Positions 10,308-26,273 of a stretch of DNA of 64,000 bases are shown piece by piece. The translations under genes and the position numbers were made by a program. The stretch is taken from contig CACJPW010000003.1 of NCBI GenBank assembly GCA_902595375.1, forward strand, positions 1 through 64,000, written 5' to 3'. This stretch comes from an uncultured Pelagibacteraceae bacterium. GTDB lineage: Bacteria; Pseudomonadota; Alphaproteobacteria; Pelagibacterales; Pelagibacteraceae. Positions within the stretch are counted from its first letter, which is position 1. Every line of letters starts with the position of its first letter. A model generated the notes under the pieces. That model saw only the letters and a list, made by a program, of their open reading frames with translations. It was not told the DNA's origin and made no database searches.

Positions 10308-11379
10308 TGTAATTCTTAATAATTTTATTCCAAGCAAAGCATTTGGAAAATTCAAAAGCATTAGTACCCAGCTCTTTATATTTTTCGTTTGATAAAATTT
10401 TTAAAAGTGTATCGTAAATAGCATTTAAATCATTTCCATTACAAAGATATCCTGTTACACCGGATTTTATTGCATCTCCTTCACCACCATATATTCCTCC
10501 AATCGACGGCTTCCCGTAGGATGCAGCTTCAATATAAGTAATACCAAATCCCTCAACTGATTTTTTATAAACAACCGAAGGCATTACGAACACATCTGAT
10601 TGTTCGAGTAAACCAACTTTCTCTTGTTCTGTAGTACTAAAAATTAATTCAACGTTTTTTTCTAAATCTAATTCTTTTCTTAATTTCTCAAGATTTTTTC
10701 TTTCATCCCCATCACCAATTGATACATATTTTAAATTTGGAAATTTTGGTAAAAGATTTTTAATTGACATTAAAATATTTTGATGGCTTTTACGACCATC
10801 TAATCTCGAAACAGTAATTAATTTTGGTGACGCATTGCCAAAAATATTTTTAGAAAACTCTCTAGCTGTTTCACTAACAGCGATAGGATAGTTACAACCA
10901 GGATTAATGACATGAATATCTTTTAATCCAAGTTTTAAACCTAATTCCTTTGTAAATTTTGAATTTGCAATTATATAATCTGCTTTTCCTAACGATTTTA
11001 AAACTCTTTTATTCAACGATGTGCCAACAGAATGATTTATTTCTTTTGAGTGAATTAAGCAAAAAGATTTTGTTTTCTTAAGGACTTCTAAATCAATATT
11101 TTCAATGCTTTTCCAATGATCAAAGAAACATGCTCTTATTTGATTTTGTTTAATAAAATCTTTTACTAAATTAGCTTTTCTATACTTTCTAAATATTTTA
11201 AAACCTGAAATCCTCTCTATACTTAATTTAGAATTTTGATCATAGTTTTCAGCATGCTCATGATTGTCTGCAAATACCTTGACTGGACCATGATTTGTAA
11301 GAGCGTTAGATAAACCCTCCATTAGGTTCTGCATTCCACCAAGTTCAGGAGGAAAATTTCTTGTAGATACTAAAAACAT
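10294..11379 (-). CDS. Glycosyltransferase family 4
   Basis: A 361-residue GT-B glycosyltransferase. The N-terminal FPPELGGMQNLMEGLS is the acceptor-domain glycine loop. LITVSRLDGRKSHQNIL begins the donor domain, and EGFGITYIEAASYGKPSIGG contains the E-x7-E motif that holds the nucleotide sugar. It probably extends a surface polysaccharide or glycolipid. Its start shares one base with the stop of the thioredoxin-fold gene upstream, so the two are co-transcribed. The sugar is unknown. Confidence 0.88.
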   Translation of the reverse strand: MFLVSTRNFPPELGGMQNLMEGLSNALTNHGPVKVFADNHEHAENYDQNSKLSIERISGFKIFRKYRKANLVKDFIKQNQIRACFFDHWKSIENIDLEVLKKTKSFCLIHSKEINHSVGTSLNKRVLKSLGKADYIIANSKFTKELGLKLGLKDIHVINPGCNYPIAVSETAREFSKNIFGNASPKLITVSRLDGRKSHQNILMSIKNLLPKFPNLKYVSIGDGDERKNLEKLRKELDLEKNVELIFSTTEQEKVGLLEQSDVFVMPSVVYKKSVEGFGITYIEAASYGKPSIGGIYGGEGDAIKSGVTGYLCNGNDLNAIYDTLLKILSNEKYKELGTNAFEFSKCFAWNKIIKNYINLI

Positions 11380-11936
11380 TAATTAAACCACTTTATATTA
11401 CATCCCATACTAGGAATTTGCTCTTTTGGACCAGATTGTGTTTCAGAAATCATTTTCATCGCTATTTTTAAATCACTATCTCCTGCTAAAACAGGTTTTA
11501 AATCTTTAAGTTCCCTAAATCTTCCTCGATACTGAAGCTTTAATTCCTTATTGTATCCAAAGAAATCAGGTGTACAAACTGCACCATATTTTTTTGCAAT
11601 TTCTTGTGTTTCATCAATTAAATAATTTATCTCACCAAAATTATTTGTTTTTGCAAATTTAATCATGTTATCGAACGAGTCTTCAGGATAATTTTTAGTA
11701 TCATTAGACATGATTGCAACAGAGTTAATCCCATCCTTTTTTAATTCATTACAATCTTTTGCTAAATCACGAACAATCGCTTTCACGTAAGGACAGTGAT
11801 TACAAATGAACATAATAAGTGTAGCTTTTTCACCTTTCACATCATTTAAAGAAATTAGTTTATTTTCTATCGATTTTAGTTTGAAATCCTCAGCTTTTTT
11901 CCCAAAATCGCATACTGGTGTCTTTGTTAAAGCCAT
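11379..11936 (-). CDS. Thioredoxin-fold (AhpC/TSA-like) protein
   Basis: A 185-residue thioredoxin-fold protein without a signal peptide, so probably cytoplasmic. The segment FICNHCPYVKAIVRDL holds the redox pair CNHC at the head of the first helix, and GAVCTPDFFGYN carries the cis-Pro loop. It matches a conserved peroxiredoxin/thioredoxin-like family in which the N-terminal part (PVCDFGKKAEDFKLKSIENK) resembles AhpC/TSA proteins. It is probably a thiol reductase or peroxidase; the partner is unknown. It starts 41 bases from the divergent gamma-carbonic anhydrase gene and overlaps the GT4 gene by one base. Confidence 0.8.
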   Translation of the reverse strand: MALTKTPVCDFGKKAEDFKLKSIENKLISLNDVKGEKATLIMFICNHCPYVKAIVRDLAKDCNELKKDGINSVAIMSNDTKNYPEDSFDNMIKFAKTNNFGEINYLIDETQEIAKKYGAVCTPDFFGYNKELKLQYRGRFRELKDLKPVLAGDSDLKIAMKMISETQSGPKEQIPSMGCNIKWFN

Positions 11937-11977
11937 AATATATTATAAGATAATTAATAATACATTACAGCAAATTT

Positions 11978-12481
11978 ATGATTTACGATGTTAACGGTCA
12001 CACTCCTAGAATGGATCCAGACAGCTGGGTAGCTTCTAATGCTGTAATCATTGGCAGAGTTGAATTAAAAAAAAATTCAAATATTTGGTTTAACGCAACT
12101 TTAAGAGGTGATTTAGAACCAATTATTATTGGTGAAGGTTCGAATATTCAAGATGGTAGCGTAATACACACAGATCCAGGTTGCCCAACTATAGTAGGCA
12201 AGGGTGTTACAGTAGGACATATGGTAATGCTACATGGATGTGAAATTTCAGATGATTGTATTATAGGAATAGGTTCAACTATTTTAAACAAAGCAAAGAT
12301 TGGAAAAAATTGTATCATCGGAGCTAATTCATTAGTGACAGAAAACAAAGTTATTCCAGATAGATCATTAGTCCTTGGTAGCCCAGGCAAAGTAGTTAGA
12401 CAAGTCACAGATGAAGAAATAAAACACATTAAAGAAAATGCCAGAGATTATGTTGAAAATATTAAAAAATATAAGAAATAG
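11978..12481 (+). CDS. Gamma-class carbonic anhydrase-like protein
   Basis: A 167-residue left-handed beta-helix protein with repeated hexapeptides. The likely zinc ligands are His in SVIHTDPG and the two His in VGHMVMLHGCEI, as in the YrdA/CaiE/PaaY-type gamma-carbonic anhydrases. These bind metal as trimers; many are of unproven activity. The 3' end overlaps the N-terminal codons of the following exported protein by 32 bases from its preferred start. Role: CO2/bicarbonate interconversion or a thioesterase-like function. The fold is secure, the activity less so. Confidence 0.85.
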   Translation: MIYDVNGHTPRMDPDSWVASNAVIIGRVELKKNSNIWFNATLRGDLEPIIIGEGSNIQDGSVIHTDPGCPTIVGKGVTVGHMVMLHGCEISDDCIIGIGSTILNKAKIGKNCIIGANSLVTENKVIPDRSLVLGSPGKVVRQVTDEEIKHIKENARDYVENIKKYKK

Positions 12482-13259
12482 TTTTTTCTTATTTGCCATT
12501 TTATTATCAGGTTTTTCAAATCTGGAGGCCAAAAACAGTAAAGATGTTTCTAATACTGAGGTGAAAAAGAAAACTATCTCACACAAGAAAAAATATTCTT
12601 TAAAATTAGTAAGTAGTAAAGACGGTCATCCTGTAAGATCTGGAAAAAAATCTTACAGATTTGAAGTAAGATTAGGTGATTGCGGTAAAGATAGCGGACA
12701 TGATGATTGCAAAAAAGATAGACAAAGAACTGAGTTGCAATTCAAAAAACATCAAAAGGATAAAAAAGATTATTGGTATTCAGCGTCAATATATTTAACT
12801 AACGATTATCAAACAGTGGCACCAGTAAGAACAACTTTTGTTCAACTTTATGAGAGAGGTTGGAAACCTATTCTAATGGTAACGGACAGAACTGGAGAAT
12901 GGTTAGAAATTGGAAGAATGTGGAGTGGTGAGTATGTTGAGATGAAAAAAGCATTAAAGATAAATGATATGAAAGGTAAATGGACAGACATATTAATTAG
13001 CGGTCGTTTCTCAAGGGAAGATGACGGTTTTATGAAAGTTTGGGTAAATAATAAATTAATTTTAAATGCTGAGAATATTAAGAACTTAACTCCATATACT
13101 AAAAGAGGAGTAGGGTTAGACTTCGGAATATACCAAACTTTTGTCAGTGGTTGGAAAAGAGAGCATGGTGATAAACCTTATCCAAATATGACTGTTTATT
13201 TTGATGAAGTAAATTTAGGGACTTCTAAAGATAAAGTTACAAAAAATTTAGGGAATTAG
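12450..13259 (+). CDS. Exported heparin-lyase-I-type (Polysacc_lyase family) protein
   Basis: A protein of about 269 residues with a signal peptide (hydrophobic core SFFLFAILLSGF, cut probably after NLEA). I start it at the ATG at 12450; an ATG at 12438 would add four residues. The mature region, with RFEVRLGDCG, DRQRTELQF, a WYSASIYL strand and a long beta-sandwich ending in YFDEVNLG, matches the jelly-roll polysaccharide lyase family containing heparin lyase I-like proteins. It would act in the periplasm or outside, on an acidic glycan. Whether it is a lyase is unproven. Its last 12 bases overlap the next gene on the other strand. Confidence 0.75.
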   Translation: MLKILKNIRNSFFLFAILLSGFSNLEAKNSKDVSNTEVKKKTISHKKKYSLKLVSSKDGHPVRSGKKSYRFEVRLGDCGKDSGHDDCKKDRQRTELQFKKHQKDKKDYWYSASIYLTNDYQTVAPVRTTFVQLYERGWKPILMVTDRTGEWLEIGRMWSGEYVEMKKALKINDMKGKWTDILISGRFSREDDGFMKVWVNNKLILNAENIKNLTPYTKRGVGLDFGIYQTFVSGWKREHGDKPYPNMTVYFDEVNLGTSKDKVTKNLGN

Positions 13260-13856
13260 CCAAGTAAATTTTTTTGAACCATTCAAATCAATTAAAGCTC
13301 TTCGGTGACCTTTTGCTGCTAAATAGAGCCATTCAATACTCTTTATTTTACATTTAATTACACAAAAATTTTTGTAACCTGCCTCGCTCTCCTCTTTAGT
13401 AAAATCAAAATTATCAAACTTATTATCTAATCCTGAAGTTGGTTTTTCAGACTCAGTCCCAGGTCCATTAGTAACCAAGTAACATTTTCTGCTTATGTGA
13501 CCGGTTTTTTCCCAAGACTCTTTTGTGATATCATTATTATAATTTACTTCACATTCAGCCTTAACTCTAAGCTGTATTTTTTCTTCCTTACCATAAAATA
13601 AAATTGAACATTTGGAATTTTTCTTAATTTTCTCAATTTTTGAAGATCTAATATCACTATGATATTGAATAAAATTATTTTGTTGATCTACTTTTCTAAG
13701 AACAACAACTCTACCATCAAGATCTTTGTCGTTACCACAAATAAATACAGGTGTTCTGAATTCTGATGATCTGTCTTTTACTGCATTAGACAAAAGATCC
13801 CATATCTTCTTTTCTATCTCTTTTGAATCTTCGTAGTAACTAACTGTATCTGACAC
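13248..13856 (-). CDS. Pyridoxamine 5'-phosphate oxidase-like flavin-binding protein
   Basis: A 202-residue split-barrel FMN-binding protein. LDGRVVVLRKVDQQNN and IQYHSDIRSSKIEKIKKN match the FMN-contacting strands of the PNPOx-like family, and the C-terminal IEWLYLAAKGHRRALID resembles the terminal strand of true PNPOx but is not diagnostic. It could oxidise pyridoxine phosphate or be a related flavin reductase. It follows the beta-hydroxyacid dehydrogenase by three bases on the same strand, so they are probably co-transcribed. True PdxH identity is uncertain, so I give no symbol. Confidence 0.75.
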   Translation of the reverse strand: MSDTVSYYEDSKEIEKKIWDLLSNAVKDRSSEFRTPVFICGNDKDLDGRVVVLRKVDQQNNFIQYHSDIRSSKIEKIKKNSKCSILFYGKEEKIQLRVKAECEVNYNNDITKESWEKTGHISRKCYLVTNGPGTESEKPTSGLDNKFDNFDFTKEESEAGYKNFCVIKCKIKSIEWLYLAAKGHRRALIDLNGSKKFTWLIP

Positions 13857-13859
13857 GAT

Positions 13860-14729
13860 TTATTTTCTAAATCTTTTGATTAAACTTGAAGTATCCCACC
13901 TTTGACCACCCATTTTTTGTACTTCAGCATAATATTCATCAATTATTTTTGTAATAGGTAAAGGTGAGTTATTTTTTTTAGCTTCGTCCATCGCTATTTT
14001 TAAATCTTTTCTCATCCAATCAACTGCAAAACCATAATCAAATTTATCTTCAATCATTGTTTTATGCCTATTTTCCATTTGCCAAGATTGAGCTGCACCT
14101 TTTGAAATTACTTCAATCACATCATGCATATTTAATCCTGCATTCATTCCAAAATTTATTGCTTCAGATAATCCCTGTACTAAACCTGCAATACAAATTT
14201 GGTTTACCATCTTAGTTAACTGACCACTTCCTGATGAACCGAGAAGTTTAATCTTTTTACTATAGCAATCAATAACTGGTTCAGCCTTTTTATAAGGAGC
14301 TTCATCTCCTCCAACCATCACTGTTAAAATTCCACCTTCAGCGCCCGCTTGTCCACCTGAAATTGGTGCATCCAAGAAATCAAAACCTTTTGATTTTGCT
14401 TCTTTGTAAAGTTCTCTGGCGATATTTGCAGATGCAGTAGTATTATCTACGTAGATCGAACCTTTTTTTGCAGTTTTAAATAAACCTTTGTCACCTAAAG
14501 TCACCTCTCTTAAATCATTATCGTTTCCGACACATGTAAAAATAAAATCACAGTCTTTTGCAGCATCCATTGGAGTATCTGCTGTTTTGCCTTTGTATTC
14601 TTTGACCCATTTTTCTGCTTTAGCTTTAGTTCGGTTAAAAACTGTTACATCGTGACCAGCTTTTGATATATAACCTGCCATAGGGTATCCCATAACACCC
14701 AAACCTATGAAAGCAACTTTACAAGTCAT
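13860..14729 (-). CDS. Beta-hydroxyacid dehydrogenase (3-hydroxyisobutyrate / tartronate-semialdehyde reductase family)
   Basis: A 289-residue NAD(P)-dependent enzyme. FIGLGVMGYPMAGYI (residues 8-22) is the Rossmann loop, DAPISGGQAGAEGG the substrate-binding loop, and SGSGQLTKMVNQ holds the catalytic Lys. These place it with 3-hydroxyisobutyrate dehydrogenase, tartronate-semialdehyde reductase and succinic-semialdehyde reductases; the exact substrate is open. Its start codon is only two bases from the start of the divergent MFS carrier. That proximity implies overlapping regulation and suggests the carrier may bring in a related hydroxy- or keto-acid. Downstream is a PNPOx-like gene. Confidence 0.9.
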   Translation of the reverse strand: MTCKVAFIGLGVMGYPMAGYISKAGHDVTVFNRTKAKAEKWVKEYKGKTADTPMDAAKDCDFIFTCVGNDNDLREVTLGDKGLFKTAKKGSIYVDNTTASANIARELYKEAKSKGFDFLDAPISGGQAGAEGGILTVMVGGDEAPYKKAEPVIDCYSKKIKLLGSSGSGQLTKMVNQICIAGLVQGLSEAINFGMNAGLNMHDVIEVISKGAAQSWQMENRHKTMIEDKFDYGFAVDWMRKDLKIAMDEAKKNNSPLPITKIIDEYYAEVQKMGGQRWDTSSLIKRFRK

Positions 14730-14731
14730 AA

Positions 14732-15946
14732 ATGATTAACCTCTCAATAAATAAAAAAGTAATTATATTTGGATTTATATTTACATTTTTTTCAAGTTTT
14801 GGACAGAGTTTTTTTTTGGGATTGTTTAACGCACCAATTCGAAATGAACTAGGTATTACTCACGGACAATTTGGAAATATTTATGCTACTGCAACAATAT
14901 TTTCTAGTCTTTTACTTATATGGGTTGGAAAGAAAATTGATGAATATCAAATAATATATTATTCTTTTTTTGTTATTCTATTATTATTTTTTTCATCTTT
15001 ATTTTTTTCTTTCATCAATAGTATTATTTTTTTATCAATCGGTATATTTTTAATGAGATTTTCTGGCCAAGGTTTAATGAGCCATACGTCTACGACTACA
15101 ATTTCAAGATTTTTTGAAAAGTCTAGGGGTAAAGCTCTAAGTACAATTTGGTTTGGATTATCATCTGCAGAATTTATTTTACCAGTATTGATAACTTATC
15201 TATTTGTAATTTATTCTTGGAGATCAGTTTGGCAAGGAATAGCAATTATTGTAATCATATTTTTGCCATTAGTTGTTTTGAATACAATCAAACAAATTAA
15301 ATTAGACTCCAGAGAAAAAGATTTAGATCCTGAAAAAAATTTTAAAATTAAAAGCTGGAGAAGAAGAGAAGTAATTAAAGATTATAGATTTTATGTTGTC
15401 TCACTTAATATGCTTGCAATGCCTTGGATAGCTACTGGTGTATTTGTTTATCAGTCATTTATTTCAGACTCAAAAATGTGGAACATTTACACAATACCAA
15501 AAGCATTTATGGTTTATTCATTAGCTTCAATTATAACTTTATTCTTCTCAGGTTTTTTAGTCGATAAATTTACAAGTAGAAAATTAATTCCAATTATGAA
15601 TATACCTCTTTTAATATCAATGTTTGTATTATTTTATTATCAACAAGAAGTCTCGGCGTTTATTTTTTTAGGTTTAGTAGGTATTTCAAATGGATTAGCT
15701 AACGTGCTTGGGTCATCTACTTGGGCCGAAATATATGGAGTAAAATTTATTGGATCTATAAAAGCTTTGACCACAGCTTTTATGGTGTTTTCAACTGCTT
15801 TTGGAACAGCAGTGTTTGGTGTAATGATCGATAATGGTTTTTCAATTGAAAATATTGCTTTTGTATCAGGCATATACATAGTTATTTCGTTATTTCTCTT
15901 AATACTAATAAGAAATAAGCTTGAACCTATTAAGCTTAGAAAATAA
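14732..15946 (+). CDS. MFS transporter
   Basis: A 404-residue membrane protein with about 12 hydrophobic segments. Between segments 2 and 3 the loop VGKKIDEYQ replaces the usual DRxGRR motif. SRFFEKSRGKALSTIWFGLS after segment 4 is typical of MFS proteins near monocarboxylate/oxalate carriers. The first membrane segment begins at about residue 9, so the ATG at 14732 must be close to the true start. It is divergent from the beta-hydroxyacid dehydrogenase with two bases between starts. The substrate is unknown; an organic acid is inferred from context only. Confidence 0.85.
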   Translation: MINLSINKKVIIFGFIFTFFSSFGQSFFLGLFNAPIRNELGITHGQFGNIYATATIFSSLLLIWVGKKIDEYQIIYYSFFVILLLFFSSLFFSFINSIIFLSIGIFLMRFSGQGLMSHTSTTTISRFFEKSRGKALSTIWFGLSSAEFILPVLITYLFVIYSWRSVWQGIAIIVIIFLPLVVLNTIKQIKLDSREKDLDPEKNFKIKSWRRREVIKDYRFYVVSLNMLAMPWIATGVFVYQSFISDSKMWNIYTIPKAFMVYSLASIITLFFSGFLVDKFTSRKLIPIMNIPLLISMFVLFYYQQEVSAFIFLGLVGISNGLANVLGSSTWAEIYGVKFIGSIKALTTAFMVFSTAFGTAVFGVMIDNGFSIENIAFVSGIYIVISLFLLILIRNKLEPIKLRK

Positions 15947-15984
15947 TTGATTTTTTAAGATTATTTGAATATATACTCTGCTTC

Positions 15985-16473
15985 ATGGCAAGGATTACCG
16001 TAGAAGACTGTTTAGAAAAAATTGATAATCAATACGATCTCGTATTATTAGCAAAAGAAAGAACTGTTCAGTTAAATGCTGGCGCTCCAATGCTAGTTGA
16101 AGAAGACAATGACAAAAGAACAATAATTTCATTGAGAGAGATAGGTGATGGTAAATTAAATGTAAAAGATATCGAAGAAAGCGCTATCAAAAGATTACGT
16201 AAAGAGCCAGACGAAATAGAGGAACAAGAAGAAACTGAAGAGGAAACGAACGATGAGTTTGAAAATCTTTATAAAGGTCAAGTTTCAAAAAGCGGTGTTG
16301 CAATATTACCTTCTAAGAGAACAAGAAGAATTCCAGAGGTTAAAAAACCTAGTTTGGCAGATGAGGCTTTATCAGAATTAAAAGATTCGCAACCTACAAT
16401 TAAAGAGGAGAATTTAGAAAAAGAAGAGGCCCCATTAGAACTGAATGAGGAAGCTTCAGAAAATACTAAGTAA
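15985..16473 (+). CDS. rpoZ: DNA-directed RNA polymerase omega subunit with long acidic tail
   Basis: The first 75 or so residues, beginning ARITVEDCLEKIDNQYDLVLLAKER, are omega proper, including the KxR-x-L-N-AG segment and a conserved acidic helix. Omega helps fold and assemble beta-prime. The protein has 162 residues, longer than typical omega (about 70-130). The extension from about residue 75 is rich in Glu and Lys, carries one RTRRI basic patch, and looks disordered. It probably has its own transcript start in the 38 bases after the MFS gene. Its 3' end overlaps the CoA-transferase gene by eight bases. Confidence 0.9.
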   Translation: MARITVEDCLEKIDNQYDLVLLAKERTVQLNAGAPMLVEEDNDKRTIISLREIGDGKLNVKDIEESAIKRLRKEPDEIEEQEETEEETNDEFENLYKGQVSKSGVAILPSKRTRRIPEVKKPSLADEALSELKDSQPTIKEENLEKEEAPLELNEEASENTK

Positions 16474-17608
16474 ATTCTTTTAAAATTTTCTGTCTGTGTT
16501 CATCCAAATCTGGTATTTCACCTCTTAAGGTTTCGTCATTATAATTTGACATTTTTATTGGATTTCCAGCTAATTTAAATTCTCCAATTTTCTTATGATA
16601 TGTTTTGACTATCATATTTCTAGCTTTTGTTTGTTCATTTTCAACAGCTTCTTTAATATTATTTATTGGTCCACAAGGTATTTTTCTTGGTGAGAAAATA
16701 TTTATCCATTCAGAAGTTTTCTTTTTAATAAGAATTTCCTCAAAAATTTCTTTTAACTCACTCATATTCCTACATCTTTGATCATTCGTTGCAAATTTAG
16801 CATTTTTAATTAAATCCTTTTTTTGCAGAGCTGAACATAGTTCATTAAACAATTTATCATTTCCTGCAGCAATTATTATATAGCTATCTTTAGTTTTAAA
16901 AGCTTCGAAAGGCGCAATTGATGGGTGCCTAGAGCCCATAGGTTTTGGTATTTCATTTTTAGATAAATACCTTGCTATTGCATTTTCTAATATTGCAATT
17001 TGACAATCTAACATAGAAACATCAATGAACATTCCTTTACCAGTTTTTTTTCTATCATATAGAGCAGCACTAATTCCAATTGCAGTAAAAAGGCCAGCAG
17101 TAATGTCACCTATTGAAGTTCCAACTCTTGTAGGCTCTGAGTTTGGTTGACCAGTTACACTCATTAAACCACCCATGCCTTGCACTACCATGTCATAAGC
17201 AGGAAGATCTTTTAAAGGACCTGTTTGACCAAATCCAGAAGCAGATGCATAAATTAACTTTGGATTCTTCTTTTTAACGTCATTCCAACCGTATCCCCAC
17301 TTATCTAAAGTTCCAGGTTTGAAATTCTCGACTAAAATGTCTGCTTTAGCTAATATTTTATCAAAAATCCTCTTATCTTTTTCATCTTTTAAATTTAAAG
17401 CAATACTTTCTTTCCCTCTATTCAGAGACATAAAATAAGCAGATTGATCTTCAACAAACGGTCCAAATTTTCTAGAGTCATCTCCAATTTCTGGAGCCTC
17501 AACTTTAATTACTCTTGCCCCAAGATCTGAAAGTATCATAGTACAATATGGACCCACTAAGACTCTTGTAAGGTCTAAAACTAATAAATCTTTTAATGGT
17601 CCATTCAT
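16466..17608 (-). CDS. Class III CoA-transferase (CaiB/BaiF family)
   Basis: About 380 residues from the ATG at 17608; a TTG 18 bases upstream is also possible. GPLKDLLVLDLTRVLVGPYC is the family N-terminus, and SMLDCQIAIL contains the Asp that forms the acyl-enzyme anhydride. Formyl-CoA, succinyl-CoA, malate and carnitine CoA-transferases belong here, so the acid cannot be named. It is divergent from a TRAP transporter operon (17700), and malonyl-CoA decarboxylase lies five genes beyond. Transfer of CoA to an imported dicarboxylate such as malonate is an attractive but unproven role. Confidence 0.9.
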   Translation of the reverse strand: MNGPLKDLLVLDLTRVLVGPYCTMILSDLGARVIKVEAPEIGDDSRKFGPFVEDQSAYFMSLNRGKESIALNLKDEKDKRIFDKILAKADILVENFKPGTLDKWGYGWNDVKKKNPKLIYASASGFGQTGPLKDLPAYDMVVQGMGGLMSVTGQPNSEPTRVGTSIGDITAGLFTAIGISAALYDRKKTGKGMFIDVSMLDCQIAILENAIARYLSKNEIPKPMGSRHPSIAPFEAFKTKDSYIIIAAGNDKLFNELCSALQKKDLIKNAKFATNDQRCRNMSELKEIFEEILIKKKTSEWINIFSPRKIPCGPINNIKEAVENEQTKARNMIVKTYHKKIGEFKLAGNPIKMSNYNDETLRGEIPDLDEHRQKILKEFT

Positions 17609-17637
17609 AAACAAGTATATTAACAAAAATACGTCTG

Positions 17638-17666
17638 TTGACTCTTATCAATATCTTTCATTTAAT
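17638..17666 (+). promoter_or_regulatory. Sigma-70-type promoter of the TRAP operon
   Basis: TTGACT (17638-17643) and TTTAAT (17661-17666) are separated by exactly 17 bases, five of six matches to each consensus hexamer. The start of transcription would fall near 17673. A GGGAG ribosome-binding site precedes the ATG at 17700. It lies just upstream of the CoA-transferase's possible TTG start on the other strand. Confidence 0.6.
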
Positions 17667-17699
17667 GGAATAAAATAATATTAAACGGGAGAATAAATA

Positions 17700-18710
17700 A
17701 TGATTAAAAAAATATCTTTATTTTTAACTTCATTAGTTTTTGCGTTTCTTACTGTTGGAACTACATATGCTGAAACATTAAAAGCAAGTCACCAATGGCC
17801 AGGAACTCCAAGAGCTGATGGATCTTACGACCCACGTCACGAAATGGTGCAAATCATTGCTGATGAGGTCAAAAAAGCTAATGTTGGAATAGATATAAGA
17901 ATTTATCCAGCAAAATCTTTATACAAACCAAAAGAACAATGGAAACCGATGACAACTGGTCAGCTAGATATTTCTGCTTTTCCTTTAGCGTATGCTTCTA
18001 AATTTCATCCAGAGTTTGATGCAACGTTAATGCCTGGGACTGTAAAAAATCATAAGCATGCTTTAAGATTTAATAAAGGTCCAATGATGAAAGAAATAAA
18101 AAAAATAATTAATGACGCTGGTGTCGTTGTTCTGTCTGATGCTTGGCTTGGCGGTGGATTTGCCTCCAAAAGTAAATGTATCAAAAATCCTAATGATGCT
18201 AAAGGTCAAGTTATGAGAGCCGCAGGTAAAGCTTTCAACCAAATGCTTGAAGCTGCTGGAGCAGGTATACAAAGTATGCCTTCATCAGAAATTTATACTG
18301 GTTTACAAACTGGAGTGTTGACAGGAGCAAACACAAGTTCTGGAAGTTTTGTGAGTTACAAAATTTACGAACAAGTAAAATGTGCTACACCTCCAGGCAA
18401 ATTTGGTCTGTGGTTTATGTACGAACCAATCCTTATGTCTAAAAAATCTTTTGATGCATTAAATTCTAAGCAACAAAAAGCTCTTATGAAAGCTGGAAAA
18501 GTTGCAGAAAAATACATGACTGCACAAGTAGAGAATTTAGATAAAAAATTTGAGGATGCATATAAAGCTGCAGGAGTTGAATTAGTCTATATGGACGCTA
18601 AAGATCATGCTGCATGGGTTGAAATTGCAAAAAAATCTTCTCATAAAGCATTTGCTGAAAAGGTGCCTGGTGGCGATAAGTTAATGAAAATGGCTTTAGC
18701 AGTTAAATAA
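17700..18710 (+). CDS. TRAP transporter solute-binding protein (DctP family)
   Basis: A 336-residue periplasmic binding protein with a signal peptide ending in TTYA before ETLK. The mature N-terminus LKASHQWPGT and the helix-rich body match DctP-type TRAP receptors. FNQMLEAAGAG and YTGLQTGVLTGAN lie in the region carrying the conserved ligand-binding Arg (QVMRAAGK). Such receptors bind organic acids and pass them to a sodium-driven permease. A strong promoter, a GGGAG Shine-Dalgarno, and an intrinsic terminator right after the gene suggest it is made in excess of the permease. The ligand is unknown. Confidence 0.92.
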   Translation: MIKKISLFLTSLVFAFLTVGTTYAETLKASHQWPGTPRADGSYDPRHEMVQIIADEVKKANVGIDIRIYPAKSLYKPKEQWKPMTTGQLDISAFPLAYASKFHPEFDATLMPGTVKNHKHALRFNKGPMMKEIKKIINDAGVVVLSDAWLGGGFASKSKCIKNPNDAKGQVMRAAGKAFNQMLEAAGAGIQSMPSSEIYTGLQTGVLTGANTSSGSFVSYKIYEQVKCATPPGKFGLWFMYEPILMSKKSFDALNSKQQKALMKAGKVAEKYMTAQVENLDKKFEDAYKAAGVELVYMDAKDHAAWVEIAKKSSHKAFAEKVPGGDKLMKMALAVK

Positions 18711-18724
18711 AATACTATATAAGG

Positions 18725-18760
18725 AACCCCTGTTTAATCTTTTAAACAGGGGTTTTTTTT
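18725..18760 (+). terminator. Intrinsic terminator/attenuator between TRAP receptor and permease genes
   Basis: A perfect 13-bp stem: AACCCCTGTTTAA (18725-18737), a four-base loop, and TTAAACAGGGGTT (18742-18754). A run of eight T (18753-18760) completes it. The dctQ-type ATG follows immediately at 18761. This is the only textbook intrinsic terminator I see in the window. Partial read-through would give receptor in excess of permease. The upstream AAGGAA (18721-18726) is partly inside the stem, so the hairpin could also limit translation of the permease gene. Confidence 0.9.
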
Positions 18761-19255
18761 ATGAAAAATAAATACTTACGGTTTTGTAGTTTAATTTCGA
18801 AGGCTTGCGGTACATTTGCTGTATTAGCATTATTGTTATCAATTTTAATTATAGTTGAATTAGTTTTTGAGCGATATTTTTTTCAAAGACCAATAACTTG
18901 GCAAACAGAGTTAGTTACAATGTTATTAGTAGCATCAACATTCATAGGCAGTGCCTATGTGCTTAGTGAGAAAGCTCATGTGAGTATGGAGTGGATATAT
19001 GATTTTTTATCAAAAAAAAATATTCTAAGACTTAAAATATTTACATCTTTTCTTAGTTTAATATTCTTTTTAATATTATTTTATTTTGGTTTTATTATGG
19101 TTGAAGAAGCTTTCACTAAAAATTATTCAACCGGCACTGTTTGGGATCCACCTTTATGGATACCATATTCTTCAATGTTGATAGGCGCTATATTTATGAT
19201 CATACAATACATTGCAGAAATAATTAAATTAATAGATGAAAAGGAACTAAACTAG
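18761..19255 (+). CDS. TRAP transporter small permease subunit (DctQ family)
   Basis: A 164-residue protein with four hydrophobic segments. RPITWQTELVTMLLVASTFIG is the conserved Trp-Glu block of DctQ proteins, and AHVSMEWIYDFLSKK follows the second segment. It pairs with the large permease to form the membrane part of a sodium-coupled tripartite transporter. The ATG directly follows the U-tract of the hairpin at 18725-18760, with no separate Shine-Dalgarno, so expression probably depends on read-through and hairpin melting. One further in-frame stop separates it from the large permease start at 19256. Confidence 0.9.
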   Translation: MKNKYLRFCSLISKACGTFAVLALLLSILIIVELVFERYFFQRPITWQTELVTMLLVASTFIGSAYVLSEKAHVSMEWIYDFLSKKNILRLKIFTSFLSLIFFLILFYFGFIMVEEAFTKNYSTGTVWDPPLWIPYSSMLIGAIFMIIQYIAEIIKLIDEKELN

Positions 19256-20587
19256 ATGGATCCATTATTAATTGCAATAATTGTAGCTGTATTTACTTTA
19301 ATAGTACTTTTTTCTGGAATACCAATAGCATTTGGTCTAAGTTTTGTATCTATAGTTCTCCTTGTTTCTTTTGAGGGTTTTCAAATGCTAGATGTGTTTG
19401 CTGAAACTTTTTATGCAGGTTTAAATTCTTTTGTTCTTTTATCAATACCAATGTTTATTTTAATGGGTATGGCGGTAGCTAATTCTCCTGCAGGAAAAGA
19501 CTTGTATACAGGTTTAGATAGATGGTTATGGAGACTACCAGGAGGGCTAGTTATTTCTAATATAGGAGCATGTTCAATATTTGCTGCTTTGAGCGGATCA
19601 AGTCCAGCTACATGTGCTGCGATAGGAACAATGGGAATTCCTGAGATGCGTAAGAGAGGTTACTCAGATCAAATAGCTACAGGTACGATAGCTGCTGGTG
19701 GTACATTAGGTGTTTTAATTCCACCAAGTATAGTTTTGATCGTCTACGGTATAGCTACTGGAACATCAATAGGAAGATTATTTCTTTGTGGCTTAATTCC
19801 AGGATTTATGTTGGCTGGTATGTTCGCACTATGGGCTTATATACACAGTTATTTTATAGATAAAGACTCTGCTAAAGCTTTAAAAGATAGAAAAGCGCCA
19901 ACTCTAAAAGAAAAACTAGAAGTATTACCAAGAATTTTTCCATTTTTAGCAATTATTTTTGGTGTTCTATATGTTTTATATGGTGGTGTGGCAACACCAT
20001 CGGAGGCATCAGGTGTTGGAGCTTTTCTTGTATTTGTGATGATAGCTGTTGTTTATAAAATTTATCAGCCCAAAAAAATCTGGAATATTGTCAAAGTCTC
20101 AATGAAGGAGAGCGTAATGATAATGTTTATTATAGCAGCTTCCTATTTATTTGCTTTTACATTATCTCAATTATATGTAACTCAATCTTTAGCTCAAAGT
20201 ATGATCGAGCTAAGCTCTAATAAGTGGGTAATATTTATTTTAATTAACATTTTCCTTCTTGTAGCAGGTTTCTTTTTACCGCCAGTTGCTGTTATAGTTA
20301 TGACTTCAGCAATATTGTTACCTGTTATTACTACATTAGGCTTCGATCCATACTGGTTTGCTATTGTTTTTACTATCAATATGGAAATAGGTTTAATTAC
20401 ACCCCCAGTTGGACTAAATCTTTATATTATAAAAGGTATAACACCTGACGTTAGTTTGTCAGAAATATTAAAAGGTTCAATTCCATTTATGATAATAATG
20501 GCTCTAGCAATAGTAATTTTATGTATTTTCCCAGAAATTGTTACATGGTTACCAGATAAAGTAATGGGTAAAGCTCTTGGTTATTAA
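19256..20587 (+). CDS. TRAP transporter large permease subunit (DctM family)
   Basis: A 443-residue multi-spanning protein with about 12 hydrophobic segments. LSIPMFILMGMAVANS, GLVISNIGACSIFAALSGSS and GTLGVLIPPSIVLIVYG are DctM signatures; the second half repeats the pattern with EIGLITPPVGLNLY. It moves the acid delivered by the binding protein using a sodium gradient. It follows the small permease without a gap. Its last 11 bases overlap a TTG start of dusA, so dusA may be expressed by read-through from this operon. Confidence 0.93.
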   Translation: MDPLLIAIIVAVFTLIVLFSGIPIAFGLSFVSIVLLVSFEGFQMLDVFAETFYAGLNSFVLLSIPMFILMGMAVANSPAGKDLYTGLDRWLWRLPGGLVISNIGACSIFAALSGSSPATCAAIGTMGIPEMRKRGYSDQIATGTIAAGGTLGVLIPPSIVLIVYGIATGTSIGRLFLCGLIPGFMLAGMFALWAYIHSYFIDKDSAKALKDRKAPTLKEKLEVLPRIFPFLAIIFGVLYVLYGGVATPSEASGVGAFLVFVMIAVVYKIYQPKKIWNIVKVSMKESVMIMFIIAASYLFAFTLSQLYVTQSLAQSMIELSSNKWVIFILINIFLLVAGFFLPPVAVIVMTSAILLPVITTLGFDPYWFAIVFTINMEIGLITPPVGLNLYIIKGITPDVSLSEILKGSIPFMIIMALAIVILCIFPEIVTWLPDKVMGKALGY

Positions 20588-21581
20588 AAAAAATATTAAC
20601 AGAAAAATTTCAGTCGCTCCAATGATGGATTGCACCGATAGACATGACCGTTTTTTTTTGAGACTTATGAGCAAGAATGTAATGCTTTATTCAGAAATGG
20701 TTGCAACAAAATCAGCAATTCATGGGGATAGAAAAAAAATTTTGCACTACAGTCCAGAGGAAAAGCCTTTAGCTTTACAAGTAGGTGGCTCTAATAAAAA
20801 AGAATTATCAGAGGTTACAAAAATAGCCGAGGACATGGGTTATGACGAAATTAATTTGAATCTGGGATGTCCTAGTAAAAAAGTACAAAAAAATAGATTT
20901 GGAGCTTGCTTAATGAAAGAACCTGATTTAGTAGCAGAATGCATTAGCGAAATGGTAAATTCATGTAAAATACCAGTTACTGCTAAAACTAGAATTGGAT
21001 TTGATAACGTCGAAGACTTTGAATATCTAAACTCATTTATACAAAAAATTGAAAAAGCTGGATGTAAGACATTTATTTTACACGCTAGAAAAGCAATATT
21101 AAAAGGCCTAACACCCAAACAAAACTTAATCATCCCAAAACTAAATTACAAAATGGTTTATGAAATTAAATCAAAAAACCCTCATCTTGAAATAATTATT
21201 AATGGGGGAATTTCAAAAATTGAAGAAATCAATAAACACCTACGGCTATGCGACGGTGTAATGATAGGAAGGTCAATATACCAAAATCCTTACTCGCTTG
21301 TTGAGATTGAAAAAGAGATATTTAAATCAAAAAATTTACCAAAAAGAGAAGAAGTAGTTGAAAAATTATTAAAATATTTGGAAAAGGAAGTTAAATTAGG
21401 AACCAAAGTAAATCATATAATGCGTCATACTGTTGGCCTTTATCACGGGCAAGCAGGTTCAAAGAATTGGAAAAGATACTTAAGTGAGAACATGATGGCA
21501 AAAGACTCTGATTTTCAAAAAGCAAAATATATTATGAATATTGTTCAAAATAACGAAAAAGCTATTCAATCGAGCGCTTAA
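20577..21581 (+). CDS. dusA: tRNA-dihydrouridine synthase, DusA type
   Basis: A 334-residue FMN-dependent enzyme with the DusA start RKISVAPMMDCTDRHDRFF and the signature INLNLGCPSKKVQKNRFGA. It reduces uridine 20/20a in the tRNA D-loop. NGGIS and GVMIGRSIYQNP are the phosphate-binding loops of the TIM barrel. The only start giving a full N-terminus is a TTG at 20577 inside the TRAP large permease gene. Its TAA stop overlaps the ATG of the following TSUP carrier. The family is secure; the start codon is less certain. Confidence 0.92.
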   Translation: MVIKKNINRKISVAPMMDCTDRHDRFFLRLMSKNVMLYSEMVATKSAIHGDRKKILHYSPEEKPLALQVGGSNKKELSEVTKIAEDMGYDEINLNLGCPSKKVQKNRFGACLMKEPDLVAECISEMVNSCKIPVTAKTRIGFDNVEDFEYLNSFIQKIEKAGCKTFILHARKAILKGLTPKQNLIIPKLNYKMVYEIKSKNPHLEIIINGGISKIEEINKHLRLCDGVMIGRSIYQNPYSLVEIEKEIFKSKNLPKREEVVEKLLKYLEKEVKLGTKVNHIMRHTVGLYHGQAGSKNWKRYLSENMMAKDSDFQKAKYIMNIVQNNEKAIQSSA

Positions 21582-22414
21582 TGGATTTAACATCTATCGA
21601 AGTAATTAATCTCTTAGTTGTTTTATCTTTGTCAGCTGCGGTTGCCGGATTTATGGCAGGTTTACTGGGAGTTGGCGGAGGAATAGTAATGGTGCCAGCC
21701 TTATACTATGCTTTTTCAGTTCTAGATTTTGATTTGGTTACCAGAATGCATTTATCAGTTGGAACATCTTTAGCAATAATTATTCCTACTTCAATAATAT
21801 CAACAAGAACCCACATGCAGTATAATGCTGTAGATTTTAATATGGTTAAGTCTTTTGGTATATTTATTTTAAGCGGAGTAATTTTAGGAACTTTTTTAGC
21901 AGTAGGCTTAAAAACACCAGCATTAGTTTTATTTTTTTCTATTTTTGCTTTCATGGTCGGTTTATTCTTTATTTTTTTTAGAGAGAAGCTTGTTGAGAGG
22001 CCCAAAAAAATTTCAAGTTTAACAAAAAATATTTCAGGAATAGTCATAGGTTTTATTTCTGTACCTTTAGGAATTGGAGGCGGATCACTTATGGTCCCTT
22101 TTATGAGGACATTTGGTTATGATATTAGAAAATCAATAGGTACAGCTGCTGCTATTGGTTTTTTAATTGCTGTAAGTGGAACTACGACAATGATAATAAG
22201 TGGAAATATTATTAATAATGTAAATTCACCATTTAGCTTTGGCTACGTTAATCTTCTTGGTTTTCTAGTCTTTGTGCCTGTTACAATGATTATGGCAAGA
22301 ATAGGAGCTAAAGTAGTGTATAAAATAAACAAAAAATTATTGAGCAAAATATTTGGTACTTTTCTTATTATTGTTTCTATTAGATCTTATATTGAGTATC
22401 TTAATATCAGCTAG
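21581..22414 (+). CDS. TSUP family (TauE/SafE) membrane carrier
   Basis: A 277-residue membrane protein built as two similar halves, each opening with a glycine motif: AGFMAGLLGVGGGIVMVP near residue 25 and SVPLGIGGGSLMVPFM in the second half. These are the TauE/SafE signatures; about eight membrane segments follow. The family exports sulfite or sulfonates in some bacteria, but others move organic acids. It overlaps dusA by one base and precedes malonyl-CoA decarboxylase by 17. A second TSUP gene (23752) lies on the other side of that decarboxylase. The substrate is unknown. Confidence 0.9.
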   Translation: MDLTSIEVINLLVVLSLSAAVAGFMAGLLGVGGGIVMVPALYYAFSVLDFDLVTRMHLSVGTSLAIIIPTSIISTRTHMQYNAVDFNMVKSFGIFILSGVILGTFLAVGLKTPALVLFFSIFAFMVGLFFIFFREKLVERPKKISSLTKNISGIVIGFISVPLGIGGGSLMVPFMRTFGYDIRKSIGTAAAIGFLIAVSGTTTMIISGNIINNVNSPFSFGYVNLLGFLVFVPVTMIMARIGAKVVYKINKKLLSKIFGTFLIIVSIRSYIEYLNIS

Positions 22415-22431
22415 TATAAGATTTTAATCAG

Positions 22432-23739
22432 ATGTTAGATTTAAAAAAGATAATTTCATCAATAGCAGATGCGGGCCAAAAATTATTCAAAAAAACTAAT
22501 TTCAAAAAAAATGATTTAGATACTATTATTTCTTTGTGTGACGATCTATTGTCTAATAAAGGAATAGTTTTTGGCATAACTGTCGCTAGAGATATAACTA
22601 ATTTGTATCAATCATTATCCAATGAAAATAAATTAATTTTTTTTAAAAAGATTAATGAAAGATACAAGCCAAATATTAAAGATGTTAATGAAGCTATAAA
22701 CAAATTCCAAAATTCTCAAGATGAGAAAAACTTATCTGATTTATTTAATAAAGCGGAAGGTAAAAGACGTGAATTGTTTAGAAGAATGAATATAGCTCCT
22801 AATGGCACGTCAATAATTGTAAAATTAAGAGAAGACTTATTAAAATTTCTTAAAAACAATAAAGATTTAACGCCTTTAGATAAAGATTTAAGACATTTGT
22901 TTAAAGCATGGTTCAATCCTGGTTTTTTGAAACTTGAGAAGATTACTTGGAGAACTAAAGCATTGATATTAGAAAAAATCATTCAGTACGAGAGAGTTCA
23001 TCAAATGAGGGATATGAATGATCTTAAAAGAAGGTTGGGTGAGGATAGGAGATTTTTTTCATATTTTCATCCTGCATTAGAGGACGAGCCCATAATATTT
23101 GTTCAAGTAGCTTTAACAGAGGGGCTTGGAAAATCAATACAGGAGATAATGAAACCAGATACATCTACGGGAAAAAAAATTGATACCGCAACCTTTTACT
23201 CTATAAGTAACTGTCAAGAGGGATTAGCTAGAGTAACTTTAGGACACTTTCTTATCAAAAGAGTTTTATATGAAATTCAAGAGGAATTGCCTAATATAAA
23301 AACTTTTGGAACTTTGTCACCTATACCTGGTTTTGCCGATTGGTTTATGTTCCAAGATGAAAAGTTAATTAATGAAATCAATAACAATAATAAAATTGAC
23401 TTATCTTTTTTAAAATCCCCAAATTTAAAAATAGGAGAAACAAAAATTGTTGAAAACAAAGAGCATATTCTAAAACTTGTTGCTCACTATCTAATTAAAG
23501 AAAAAGATAAAAATGGATATCCTGTTGGAGATGTAACTAGATTTCATTTAAGAAATGGAGCACTCATAGATGACATAATTATCAATGCCAACGTTTCAGA
23601 AACAGGTTACAAACGCTCTTTTGGAGTAATGGTAAATTATCTCTATGAATTGAAAGATATTGAAAAAAATCATGAAGAATTTGTAAACAAAAAAACAGTT
23701 ATATATTCAAATAAAGTAAAGAAGTATTTACAAAGTTAA
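22432..23739 (+). CDS. Malonyl-CoA decarboxylase
   Basis: A 435-residue protein of near-normal length for the family. It has a helical N-terminal domain, then ERVHQMRDMNDLKRRLGEDR and YFHPALEDEPIIFVQVALTEG, which are strongly conserved in malonyl-CoA decarboxylases. LSPIPGF and TRFHLRNGA hold the likely catalytic Ser and His. It converts malonyl-CoA to acetyl-CoA and CO2. No malonyl-CoA synthetase is in the window. The neighbouring class III CoA-transferase and TRAP transporter are possible sources of malonyl-CoA from malonate. Flanked on both sides by TSUP carriers. Confidence 0.92.
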   Translation: MLDLKKIISSIADAGQKLFKKTNFKKNDLDTIISLCDDLLSNKGIVFGITVARDITNLYQSLSNENKLIFFKKINERYKPNIKDVNEAINKFQNSQDEKNLSDLFNKAEGKRRELFRRMNIAPNGTSIIVKLREDLLKFLKNNKDLTPLDKDLRHLFKAWFNPGFLKLEKITWRTKALILEKIIQYERVHQMRDMNDLKRRLGEDRRFFSYFHPALEDEPIIFVQVALTEGLGKSIQEIMKPDTSTGKKIDTATFYSISNCQEGLARVTLGHFLIKRVLYEIQEELPNIKTFGTLSPIPGFADWFMFQDEKLINEINNNNKIDLSFLKSPNLKIGETKIVENKEHILKLVAHYLIKEKDKNGYPVGDVTRFHLRNGALIDDIIINANVSETGYKRSFGVMVNYLYELKDIEKNHEEFVNKKTVIYSNKVKKYLQS

Positions 23740-23751
23740 TTTTCAGTTTTT

Positions 23752-24579
23752 ATGTCACTTCTAATTAATGATTATATCTTTATTATTTCAACAATGGTTC
23801 TCGCTGCGATACCAGTGGGTTTTTTTGCTGGATTATTTGGTATTGGGGGAGGTTTGATTTCTGTTCCTTTTCTTTTTTTTATATTTGAATTATTAGATTT
23901 TAAAGAAGAATTTCTTATGCATTTGTCAGTAGGAACGGCTTTTGCAATAACTATAATGACTGCAGCTTCATCTGTATTAACTCACAATAAACATAAAGCT
24001 GTAAATTTTAAAAAAATTAAGTTATTTAGCTTTGGTGTAATTTTGGGTGTGATAGCAGGTGCAATTTTTGCGTCAATTATAAATACAAAATTTTTAATAC
24101 TTTTTTTCTCTCTTGTAGTTTTTATTTTTAGTTTTTATCTATTATTTAATAAGAATAATCAAAATAAAATTATTCCCAATATCAGTTTTTTATTAAAACT
24201 TTTTTTGGGTTTTATATCTGGATTTATTTCAGCACCCATGGGCATTACTGGTGCTATGATGAATGTTCCAATTCTTAAGTATTTTGGATATGAAATAAAA
24301 ATCGCAATAGGAAGTTCAGCAGCCATTGGGTTAATCATCGCATTATTTGGAACTATAAGCTTTTTATTTTCTGGATTATTTTTGAAAGCTGATCTCCCAC
24401 TAAGTGTAGGATTTGTTAACGTGCCTGCTTTTTTAATATTTGTACCTATAACAACATTTATGGCAAGAATCGGCGCTAATACAGTACATAGTATGAATAA
24501 AAACAAAATTCAAAAGTATTTTGGTTTGTTTTTAATAGTAATTGGTACAAAATTTTTATACGAATATTTTAAACTTTAG
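23752..24579 (+). CDS. Second TSUP family (TauE/SafE) membrane carrier
   Basis: A 275-residue membrane protein homologous to the carrier at 21581, with the same layout: AGLFGIGGGLISVPFL in the first half and APMGITGAMMNVPIL in the second. Shared segments include LMHLSVGTAFAITI, SSAAIGLIIALFGT and ARIGANTVHSMNK. The second-half glycine motif is altered (GITGAMMN for GIGGGSLM), so the two paralogues may differ in substrate. It follows malonyl-CoA decarboxylase by 12 bases and is probably the last gene of this operon. A 64-base gap then separates it from the convergent mutase gene. Confidence 0.9.
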   Translation: MSLLINDYIFIISTMVLAAIPVGFFAGLFGIGGGLISVPFLFFIFELLDFKEEFLMHLSVGTAFAITIMTAASSVLTHNKHKAVNFKKIKLFSFGVILGVIAGAIFASIINTKFLILFFSLVVFIFSFYLLFNKNNQNKIIPNISFLLKLFLGFISGFISAPMGITGAMMNVPILKYFGYEIKIAIGSSAAIGLIIALFGTISFLFSGLFLKADLPLSVGFVNVPAFLIFVPITTFMARIGANTVHSMNKNKIQKYFGLFLIVIGTKFLYEYFKL

Positions 24580-24643
24580 AGTATTCGAAAAATATTTATA
24601 TTTCTCATATTCCTTCATTGATATAAAAAGTTTTCTTAAAAAA

Positions 24644-26086
24644 TTAAATTTTTTGATCATACTCACCAATTTTCCCGGTTTTTTGGAGCAAATTATCTAT
24701 AAATTCAAAAATCTTTTTTTTTCTATTATTTGATGTTGTGCTTTCTGTAACAATTACTAATGACGGTTTATTTGATGAAGCTCTTATTAGTCCCCAGGAT
24801 CCATCCTCTAAAGTGAATCTTACTCCGTTTACAGTTAATATATCAGTAATATATTGACTATCTATTTTAATATTTTTTTTTTTTAAATTTTGGACTTCTT
24901 TGACAATACTTTCAACAACTTTATATTTTTCTTCATCTTTACAAAAAGGAGCCATAGTCGGAGTTTGATAAGTAATTGGCAATTCTTTAATGATGTCACT
25001 CATCTTTCTATTTTGATTATCTAAAAGATGGCATATTTGAATTGATGAATTTATGCCATCATCATAACCATATCCTAATGGCTGATTAAAAAAGAAGTGA
25101 CCGCTTTTTTCAAAACCTGCTAGAGCTTTTTCAGTATTTACTTTTCTTTTAATATGAGAATGTCCAGTTTTCCAATAAATTGTTTTACATTTATTTTTTA
25201 TGAGAACTTTATCGTTTGCAAATAAACCAGTAGATTTAACATCAACAACAAACTTAGAGTCCTTATGAGATGAAGATAGATTTCTAGCTATTAATAACCC
25301 AATTTTATCTGAGAATATTTCATTTCCTTGATCATCTATTACTCCACATCTATCTCCATCTCCGTCAAAACCAAATCCAATATCGGCTTTATTATTTTTT
25401 ACAGCTTTAGATATAGCATGAAGCATTTTAAGATCTTCTGGATTTGGATTATATTTAGGAAAAGACCAATCTAAATTACAATCTAATTCTATAACTTCGC
25501 ACCCAATACCTTTTAAAATTTCTGGAGCAAATATTCCAGCTGTACCATTTCCACAAGCAACTACAGCTTTTATCTTTTTATTTATCTTATTTTTTTTAAT
25601 TAAATCTTGTATGTATACATTCTTAAAATCATTAATTTTTTTTAATGATCCTTTTCCATTTAGGAATTTGTTATTTAAAGTAATTTCTTTTAAGTTTGCC
25701 ATTTCTTCTGGTGCATGTGTTAAACCCTTTTGAATGCCCATTTTTACTCCTGTCCAACCGTTTTCATTATGACTAGCAGTTACCATGGCTATTGCATCTG
25801 AGTTTAAATTAAACTGAGCAAAATAAACCATTGGAGAAAGAGATAAACCTACATCTTCAACATTGCATCCTGTTAAAATTAAACCTTCAATTAAAGCTTT
25901 TTTAATTTTTTCGCTGTAAGATCTATAATCATGACCAACAATTACTCTTGGATTATTTTTTTTGGTGTTTTGAATGATTTGAGTTCCTAGGCCTTTGCCT
26001 AAATTAGTGATTCCCATAATATCGATCTCTTTTTCAAAGACCCATCTCGCGTCATACTCTCTAAAACCGTTAGGATTGATTTTCAT
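24644..26086 (-). CDS. Phosphomannomutase/phosphoglucomutase
   Basis: A 480-residue alpha-D-phosphohexomutase with four domains. MVTASHNENGWTGVKMG contains the phosphoserine in TASHN; the usual Pro after Asn is Glu here. GFDGDGDRCGVID is the magnesium loop, GFEKSGHFFF the sugar-binding loop, and the C-terminal TEST-SNNRKKK the phosphate-binding loop. It interconverts mannose- or glucose-6-phosphate and 1-phosphate for envelope sugar precursors. The gene is monocistronic. Its promoter must lie in the 187-base region shared with divergent nrdA. Confidence 0.9.
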   Translation of the reverse strand: MKINPNGFREYDARWVFEKEIDIMGITNLGKGLGTQIIQNTKKNNPRVIVGHDYRSYSEKIKKALIEGLILTGCNVEDVGLSLSPMVYFAQFNLNSDAIAMVTASHNENGWTGVKMGIQKGLTHAPEEMANLKEITLNNKFLNGKGSLKKINDFKNVYIQDLIKKNKINKKIKAVVACGNGTAGIFAPEILKGIGCEVIELDCNLDWSFPKYNPNPEDLKMLHAISKAVKNNKADIGFGFDGDGDRCGVIDDQGNEIFSDKIGLLIARNLSSSHKDSKFVVDVKSTGLFANDKVLIKNKCKTIYWKTGHSHIKRKVNTEKALAGFEKSGHFFFNQPLGYGYDDGINSSIQICHLLDNQNRKMSDIIKELPITYQTPTMAPFCKDEEKYKVVESIVKEVQNLKKKNIKIDSQYITDILTVNGVRFTLEDGSWGLIRASSNKPSLVIVTESTTSNNRKKKIFEFIDNLLQKTGKIGEYDQKI

Positions 26087-26149
26087 TAGTTATAAATACT
26101 AAAGAATGTAGGCATTTGTTATTAAATGTTTATTAACAAAACTTTCCAC

Positions 26150-26178
26150 TTGCAAAATTAATTAAATGTTCTTATAAT
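26150..26178 (+). promoter_or_regulatory. Sigma-70-type promoter of nrdAB
   Basis: TTGCAA (26150-26155) and a perfect TATAAT (26173-26178) are separated by 17 bases, giving a start of transcription near 26185. This lies about 90 bases upstream of the nrdA ATG, with the NrdR-like boxes falling just after the start point. Confidence 0.6.
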
Positions 26179-26191
26179 GTTCTATTGATTT

Positions 26192-26207
26192 CGATGTTAT
26201 ATAGTAT
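26192..26207 (+). promoter_or_regulatory. Upstream half of NrdR-box pair (degenerate)
   Basis: The 16 bases CGATGTTATATAGTAT have a good right half compared with the NrdR consensus (ATaTwGt-t) and a poor left half. The spacing to the stronger box at 26223 is exactly 31 bases, the three-turn spacing expected for paired NrdR sites. On its own this site would not be convincing. Confidence 0.4.
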
Positions 26208-26222
26208 ATTAACATATTTGTA

Positions 26223-26238
26223 ACACAACATGTAGTTG
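26223..26238 (+). promoter_or_regulatory. NrdR-box-like operator upstream of nrdA
   Basis: ACACAACATGTAGTTG matches the core of the NrdR consensus acaCwAtATaTwGtgt at all the invariant positions (C4, A6, A8, T9, T11, G13). It lies 36 bases before the nrdA ATG. NrdR is the ATP/dATP-sensing repressor of ribonucleotide reductase genes; its gene is not in this window. Confidence 0.6.
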
Positions 26239-26273
26239 TTTTGTTAACAAATCGAGTAAAAAACAAGGAAAAT

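Follow-up and report, generated by a model that had tools for sequence, protein, structure and literature searches.

The 50-nt gap between dctP and dctQ in a TRAP transporter operon of SAR11 (Pelagibacteraceae) holds a hairpin and T tract that run up to the permease start codon. We consider it very probable that this element is an internal intrinsic terminator after dctP that keeps the receptor DctP in excess over the permease DctQM, with its fusion to the start codon being a result of genome shrinkage. The window, i.e., the whole stretch of DNA analysed, is 64,000 nt (64 kb) long, and its features at this locus are the following.

17700-18710, + strand: dctP, TRAP solute-binding protein (receptor); Pfam PF03480, E 6.9e-42
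18687-18726, + strand: last seven dctP codons, stop codon and spacer to the C run; hyperconserved by heterozygosity and identity
18721-18726, + strand: AAGGAA, the earlier Shine-Dalgarno candidate; not conserved
18725-18754, + strand: terminator hairpin, 13-bp stem (18725-18737 / 18742-18754) with TCTT loop; kept in the 85 compared junctions
18748-18752, + strand: AGGGG in the 3′ arm, a better-placed Shine-Dalgarno-like sequence, buried in the stem
18753-18760, + strand: T8 tract (terminator U tract), adjoining the start codon; sequence and orthologues
18761-19255, + strand: dctQ, small TRAP permease subunit; Pfam PF04290, E 3.6e-27
19256-20587, + strand: dctM, large TRAP permease subunit; Pfam PF06808, E 8.4e-95, and TIGR00786 above its cut-off

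The arms AACCCCTGTTTAA (18725-18737) and TTAAACAGGGGTT (18742-18754) enclose the TCTT loop (18738-18741), and the dctQ ATG at 18761 lies directly 3′ of T8. A stable stem-loop is thus followed at once by a U tract, as in intrinsic terminators, and the order dctP, hairpin, dctQ, dctM on one strand is that of internal terminators placed between receptor and permease genes. The RNA of 18700-18780 folds at -24.7 kcal/mol, against -9.7 ± 2.6 for shuffles (z -5.7; 0 of 200 shuffles as good), and this z-score, together with conservation, rules out a chance hairpin. A hand-coded d'Aubenton Carafa-style terminator score, calibrated on E. coli, was positive (25-40). The initial annotation had described a 13-bp perfect stem with a T tract ending at the dctQ ATG, which the sequence bears out, and had called it the only clear intrinsic terminator in 64 kb. 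That claim holds in our stricter scan of both strands, where the dctP/dctQ element is the sole hairpin plus T tract below about -10 kcal/mol, the next best reaching -8.2 and -7.0 kcal/mol; the best of 20 Markov shuffles (plus strand only) reached -17.2, against -19.8 for the dctP/dctQ hairpin. A simpler terminator scan of 10000-29000 did not list this hairpin and returned 13 weak ones, against 8.4 by chance. Downstream of dctM (20577-24579) come dusA, two membrane proteins that look TauE-like by eye, and a malonyl-CoA decarboxylase (22432-23739), a neighbourhood that may give a clue to what is transported.

We propose that most RNA polymerases would stop in the T tract, releasing an mRNA of dctP alone whose 3′ end is protected by the hairpin, and that a minority would read through into dctQM, leaving the receptor in large excess over the permease. 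In the streamlined genomes of SAR11, the intergenic region would have shrunk to a stop codon, about 16 nt of ribosome room, the hairpin and the T tract, whose contact with the permease ATG would be the outcome of that shrinkage. That a very compact genome has lost the rest of this gap and kept the terminator is the simplest explanation of the fusion, which does look like genome streamlining. A likely by-product, or a second level of control, is that the hairpin in read-through RNA would hide AGGGG and part of the AUG and lower permease translation. Termination in vivo at dctP/dctQ, its efficiency, the receptor excess and the translational effect are what we infer from the anatomy and the comparisons below.

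Lack of conservation would have spoken against the annotated stem, and the opposite was found. The closest named loci all belong to uncultured Pelagibacteraceae or Candidatus Pelagibacter, and our orthologue set comprises 80 loci of named SAR11 genomes at 94-95% protein identity. The hairpin with 7-9 T is present in 80 of 80, and the ATG follows the T tract directly in 78, with one extra base before it in the other two. Since the number of T varies, any start further upstream would be thrown out of frame, which supports the ATG at 18761 as the true dctQ start. Every stem cell counted is paired in the 38 distinct sequences, with both-sided changes at two stem pairs and 6 further pair types (4.4 in shuffles), and pairing is lost in a sliding control. 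Close relatives differ little, which keeps this covariation modest, and more diverged relatives are better evidence for the stem. At 86% identity, locus L002 has a re-paired stem (CCCCTGATTA/TAGTCAGGGG); in another genus (L144 and L145, 77-78% identity) the stem is CCCCTGC/GCAGGGG. In all three, the T-rich tail reaches the ATG or stops at most 2 nt short of it. The stop codon lies 15-16 nt from the C run in 85 of 85 junctions compared, a distance that would fit the room needed by a terminating ribosome without disturbing the hairpin. Many non-SAR11 alphaproteobacteria also have hairpins after dctP, mostly without T tracts or fusion. We rejected T7-ATG as a general start signal: among 30 such sites of this genome, just the two dctP/dctQ junctions have a strong hairpin.

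Such elements are concentrated after binding-protein genes, beyond what chance would give. Our background sample of 464 kb combined 400 kb of one complete SAR11 genome (G350, same family) with the window; simple ORF calls gave 310 same-strand neighbouring pairs, binding-protein genes were identified by Pfam among exported upstream proteins chosen by a simple signal-peptide rule, and a hairpin was counted if it reached -11 kcal/mol or better just 3′ of the stop codon. Hairpins follow 7 of 8 solute-binding-protein genes and 3 of 302 other same-strand pairs (p 2e-11; p 2e-9 when restricted to the 6 binding-protein hairpins with a clear T tail). Seen from the other side, solute-binding-protein genes directly precede 8 of the 13 strong hairpin-plus-T-tract terminators of the sample, and others of these follow apparent proteorhodopsin and isocitrate lyase genes (by eye). 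The proteorhodopsin-like gene, at L199 (10170-10250), is thus a rare non-receptor gene with a strong terminator before a same-strand gene. Two cases count against the receptor-excess reading: no terminator separates the window's second binding-protein gene, of the OpuAC family (32402-33406), from the gene that follows it, and the binding-protein hairpin at L202 has a poor U tract. At 33440-33478, just inside the ORF after the OpuAC-family gene, there is a strong stem, CTTAAAATTTCCCTC...GAGGGAAAATTTAAG, that lacks a T tract; in a relative (L185), another strong stem of different sequence lies around the start of this ORF.

The same dctP/dctQ junction of a second TRAP operon, in this genome and in relatives across the genus, carries an unrelated terminator, with stems GGGGGCG...CGCCCCC or GGGGGTGA...TCACCCCC followed by T7. 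A fused start was rejected there, as the frame that begins at the adjacent ATG is very short (13 aa in this genome) and dctQ appears to start about 40 nt later. At L112 (2476-2600; G000 contig C5), the stop of this 13-aa frame overlaps the apparent dctQ start (ATGA); other species have a still shorter one, and L012 has none.

A mechanism of this kind is known from other bacteria. In Ruminiclostridium cellulolyticum, Northern blots and reporters showed that 20.7-96.1% of transcripts end at stem-loops placed after ABC binding-protein genes, with more than 90% ending at those of the poly(U) Type I, and the strategy was proposed to be widespread (Wu et al. 2022, PMC9045158). The dctP/dctQ element resembles them in being a single stem-loop directly after the binding-protein gene and before the permease genes, without an antiterminator, and its U tract is like that of Type I (more than 5 U). 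It differs in belonging to a TRAP operon of an alphaproteobacterium and in having its T tract fused to the permease start, within a gap little longer than the terminator; moreover, termination was measured in R. cellulolyticum, whereas in the present case it is predicted from sequence. By analogy, the SAR11 TRAP and ABC operons would use the same kind of device. Together with conservation and enrichment after SAR11 binding-protein genes, this precedent lends good comparative support to the earlier suggestion that the hairpin likely sets the receptor-to-permease ratio. Our literature search found no paper on dctP/dctQ hairpins and nothing decisive on SAR11 receptor/permease transcript ratios. 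The main text on structured RNAs of Candidatus Pelagibacter ubique is without dctP or TRAP (Meyer et al. 2009, PMC2704228). In an iron-limitation microarray, sfuC rose 16-fold, sfuB 10-fold and sfuA 5-fold (PMC2864753), but we do not count this as evidence because these are induction ratios, not abundances.

Alternatively, and more tentatively, the element could be both a terminator and a translational gate, with the start-codon fusion itself selected and the hairpin and A-rich spacer hiding AGGGG and the AUG. We regard it as possible, to the same limited degree, that permease translation would then be weak, or would depend on some further factor such as an RNA chaperone. A third TRAP type (L005-L008) and two ABC operons (L189, L190) show the fusion again, within 0-2 nt, although their stems are unrelated, as selection would have it. 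However, several other SAR11 binding-protein terminators lie 16-60 nt before the next start, so that fusion is frequent but not universal and is not required, and scarce intergenic space accounts for it without selection. In the third TRAP type, a strong GGCCGTA stem comes right after the binding-protein stop codon and has 3-4 T only, a weak terminator tail that runs directly into the ATG of a following gene judged DctQ-like by eye.

The low predicted accessibility of the dctQ start favors the gate. The predicted cost of opening the start region is 22.7 kcal/mol, and homologous junctions average 20.4, whereas 40 other starts of the window have a median of 5.7 and a maximum of 12.1 kcal/mol; the start is thus predicted to be less open than others, in homologues too, as expected of a sequestered Shine-Dalgarno sequence. 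That maximum belongs to the dctP start region (17600-17760). AGGGG ends 8 nt before the ATG, is fully paired inside the predicted stem, and in 84 of 85 junctions has its G run 7-9 nt ahead of the ATG; however, the stem itself needs the G run in any case, so its conservation is no proof of a Shine-Dalgarno role. Since the start is costly to open, translation from read-through mRNA should be inefficient as long as the hairpin stays closed, and this would strengthen receptor excess. Gating of permease translation by the hairpin in read-through RNA is therefore plausible on these folding predictions. In some attenuators and riboswitch expression platforms, the terminator also hides the Shine-Dalgarno sequence, and here too one hairpin would be able to do both; unlike them, the dctP/dctQ hairpin sits between two operon genes, with no sensor domain or competing structure found. 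No Rfam family matched at gathering scores within the window, and folds of the hairpin with about 110-120 nt of upstream sequence, for three sequences, showed neither a competing helix for the C-rich arm nor an antiterminator. In these searches, the dctP/dctQ element shows neither mark of a riboswitch or attenuator, i.e., a known family or a structure that competes with the terminator.

A plain terminator does not explain the hyperconserved block before the stem. Over the last seven dctP codons, third-position heterozygosity in five-codon windows is 0.006-0.015, against a gene mean of 0.199, so that these windows rank within the lowest 4 of 320. Identity between relatives is 99.5% in the 16-nt spacer but 76.6% at four-fold sites. 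In the fold, the A-rich spacer is able to pair with the U tract and AUG, which speaks for a gate but does not account for the invariance of the dctP codons. We found no explanatory structure or known motif in 18687-18726. There is a weak promoter-like match by eye in the spacer (TTAGCA, 16 nt, TATAAA in relatives), which would start transcription at the stem itself. One could go further and see a terminator joined to a translational gate, with 18687-18726 adding conditional control of permease output as an RNA-binding-protein site, hidden promoter or antitermination element, and fused terminators forming a SAR11-wide device of binding-protein transporters; we think this joint proposal, with any of these roles for the block, unlikely.

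The hairpin might instead only protect a 3′ end or mark processing, with the dctP mRNA being stabilized after nuclease cleavage and no termination taking place. Strong hairpins do protect 3′ ends, as discussed in PMC9045158, and SAR11 receptor genes are very highly expressed (PMC8437039); however, the uninterrupted 7-9 nt T tract of nearly all orthologues is a mark of intrinsic termination that protection does not need, and we hold this reading to be quite improbable.

It is hardly credible that AAGGAA is the Shine-Dalgarno sequence of the permease, either partly enclosed in the stem or moved close to the AUG when the hairpin closes: AAGG does come to lie 6 nt from the ATG once the 13-bp stem is closed in this genome, but most relatives have AAAGAA in its place, others have AAATAA or AAAAA, L144 and L145 lack the motif, and Shine-Dalgarno use is low in the window, with such a motif at -18 to -4 in 26% of starts. 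The initial annotation had taken AAGGAA for the only Shine-Dalgarno-like sequence and built its idea of gating on the part of it that lies in the stem. We reject it as a conserved Shine-Dalgarno sequence, and the better-placed AGGGG is the better candidate; the segment that holds it is predicted to pair with the anti-Shine-Dalgarno at -6.2 kcal/mol, against -4.0 for AAGGAA.

Finally, the main interest of the internal terminator lies in its concentration at binding-protein genes in our sample and in its compactness. SAR11, whose cells rank with the most abundant in the ocean, produces some solute-binding proteins in very large quantities. If the strong terminators of its streamlined genomes mainly follow receptor genes, one compact element would explain receptor excess in operons with a single promoter. 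If this is true, it would also be a caution against equating receptor transcript levels in the sea with transporter levels.
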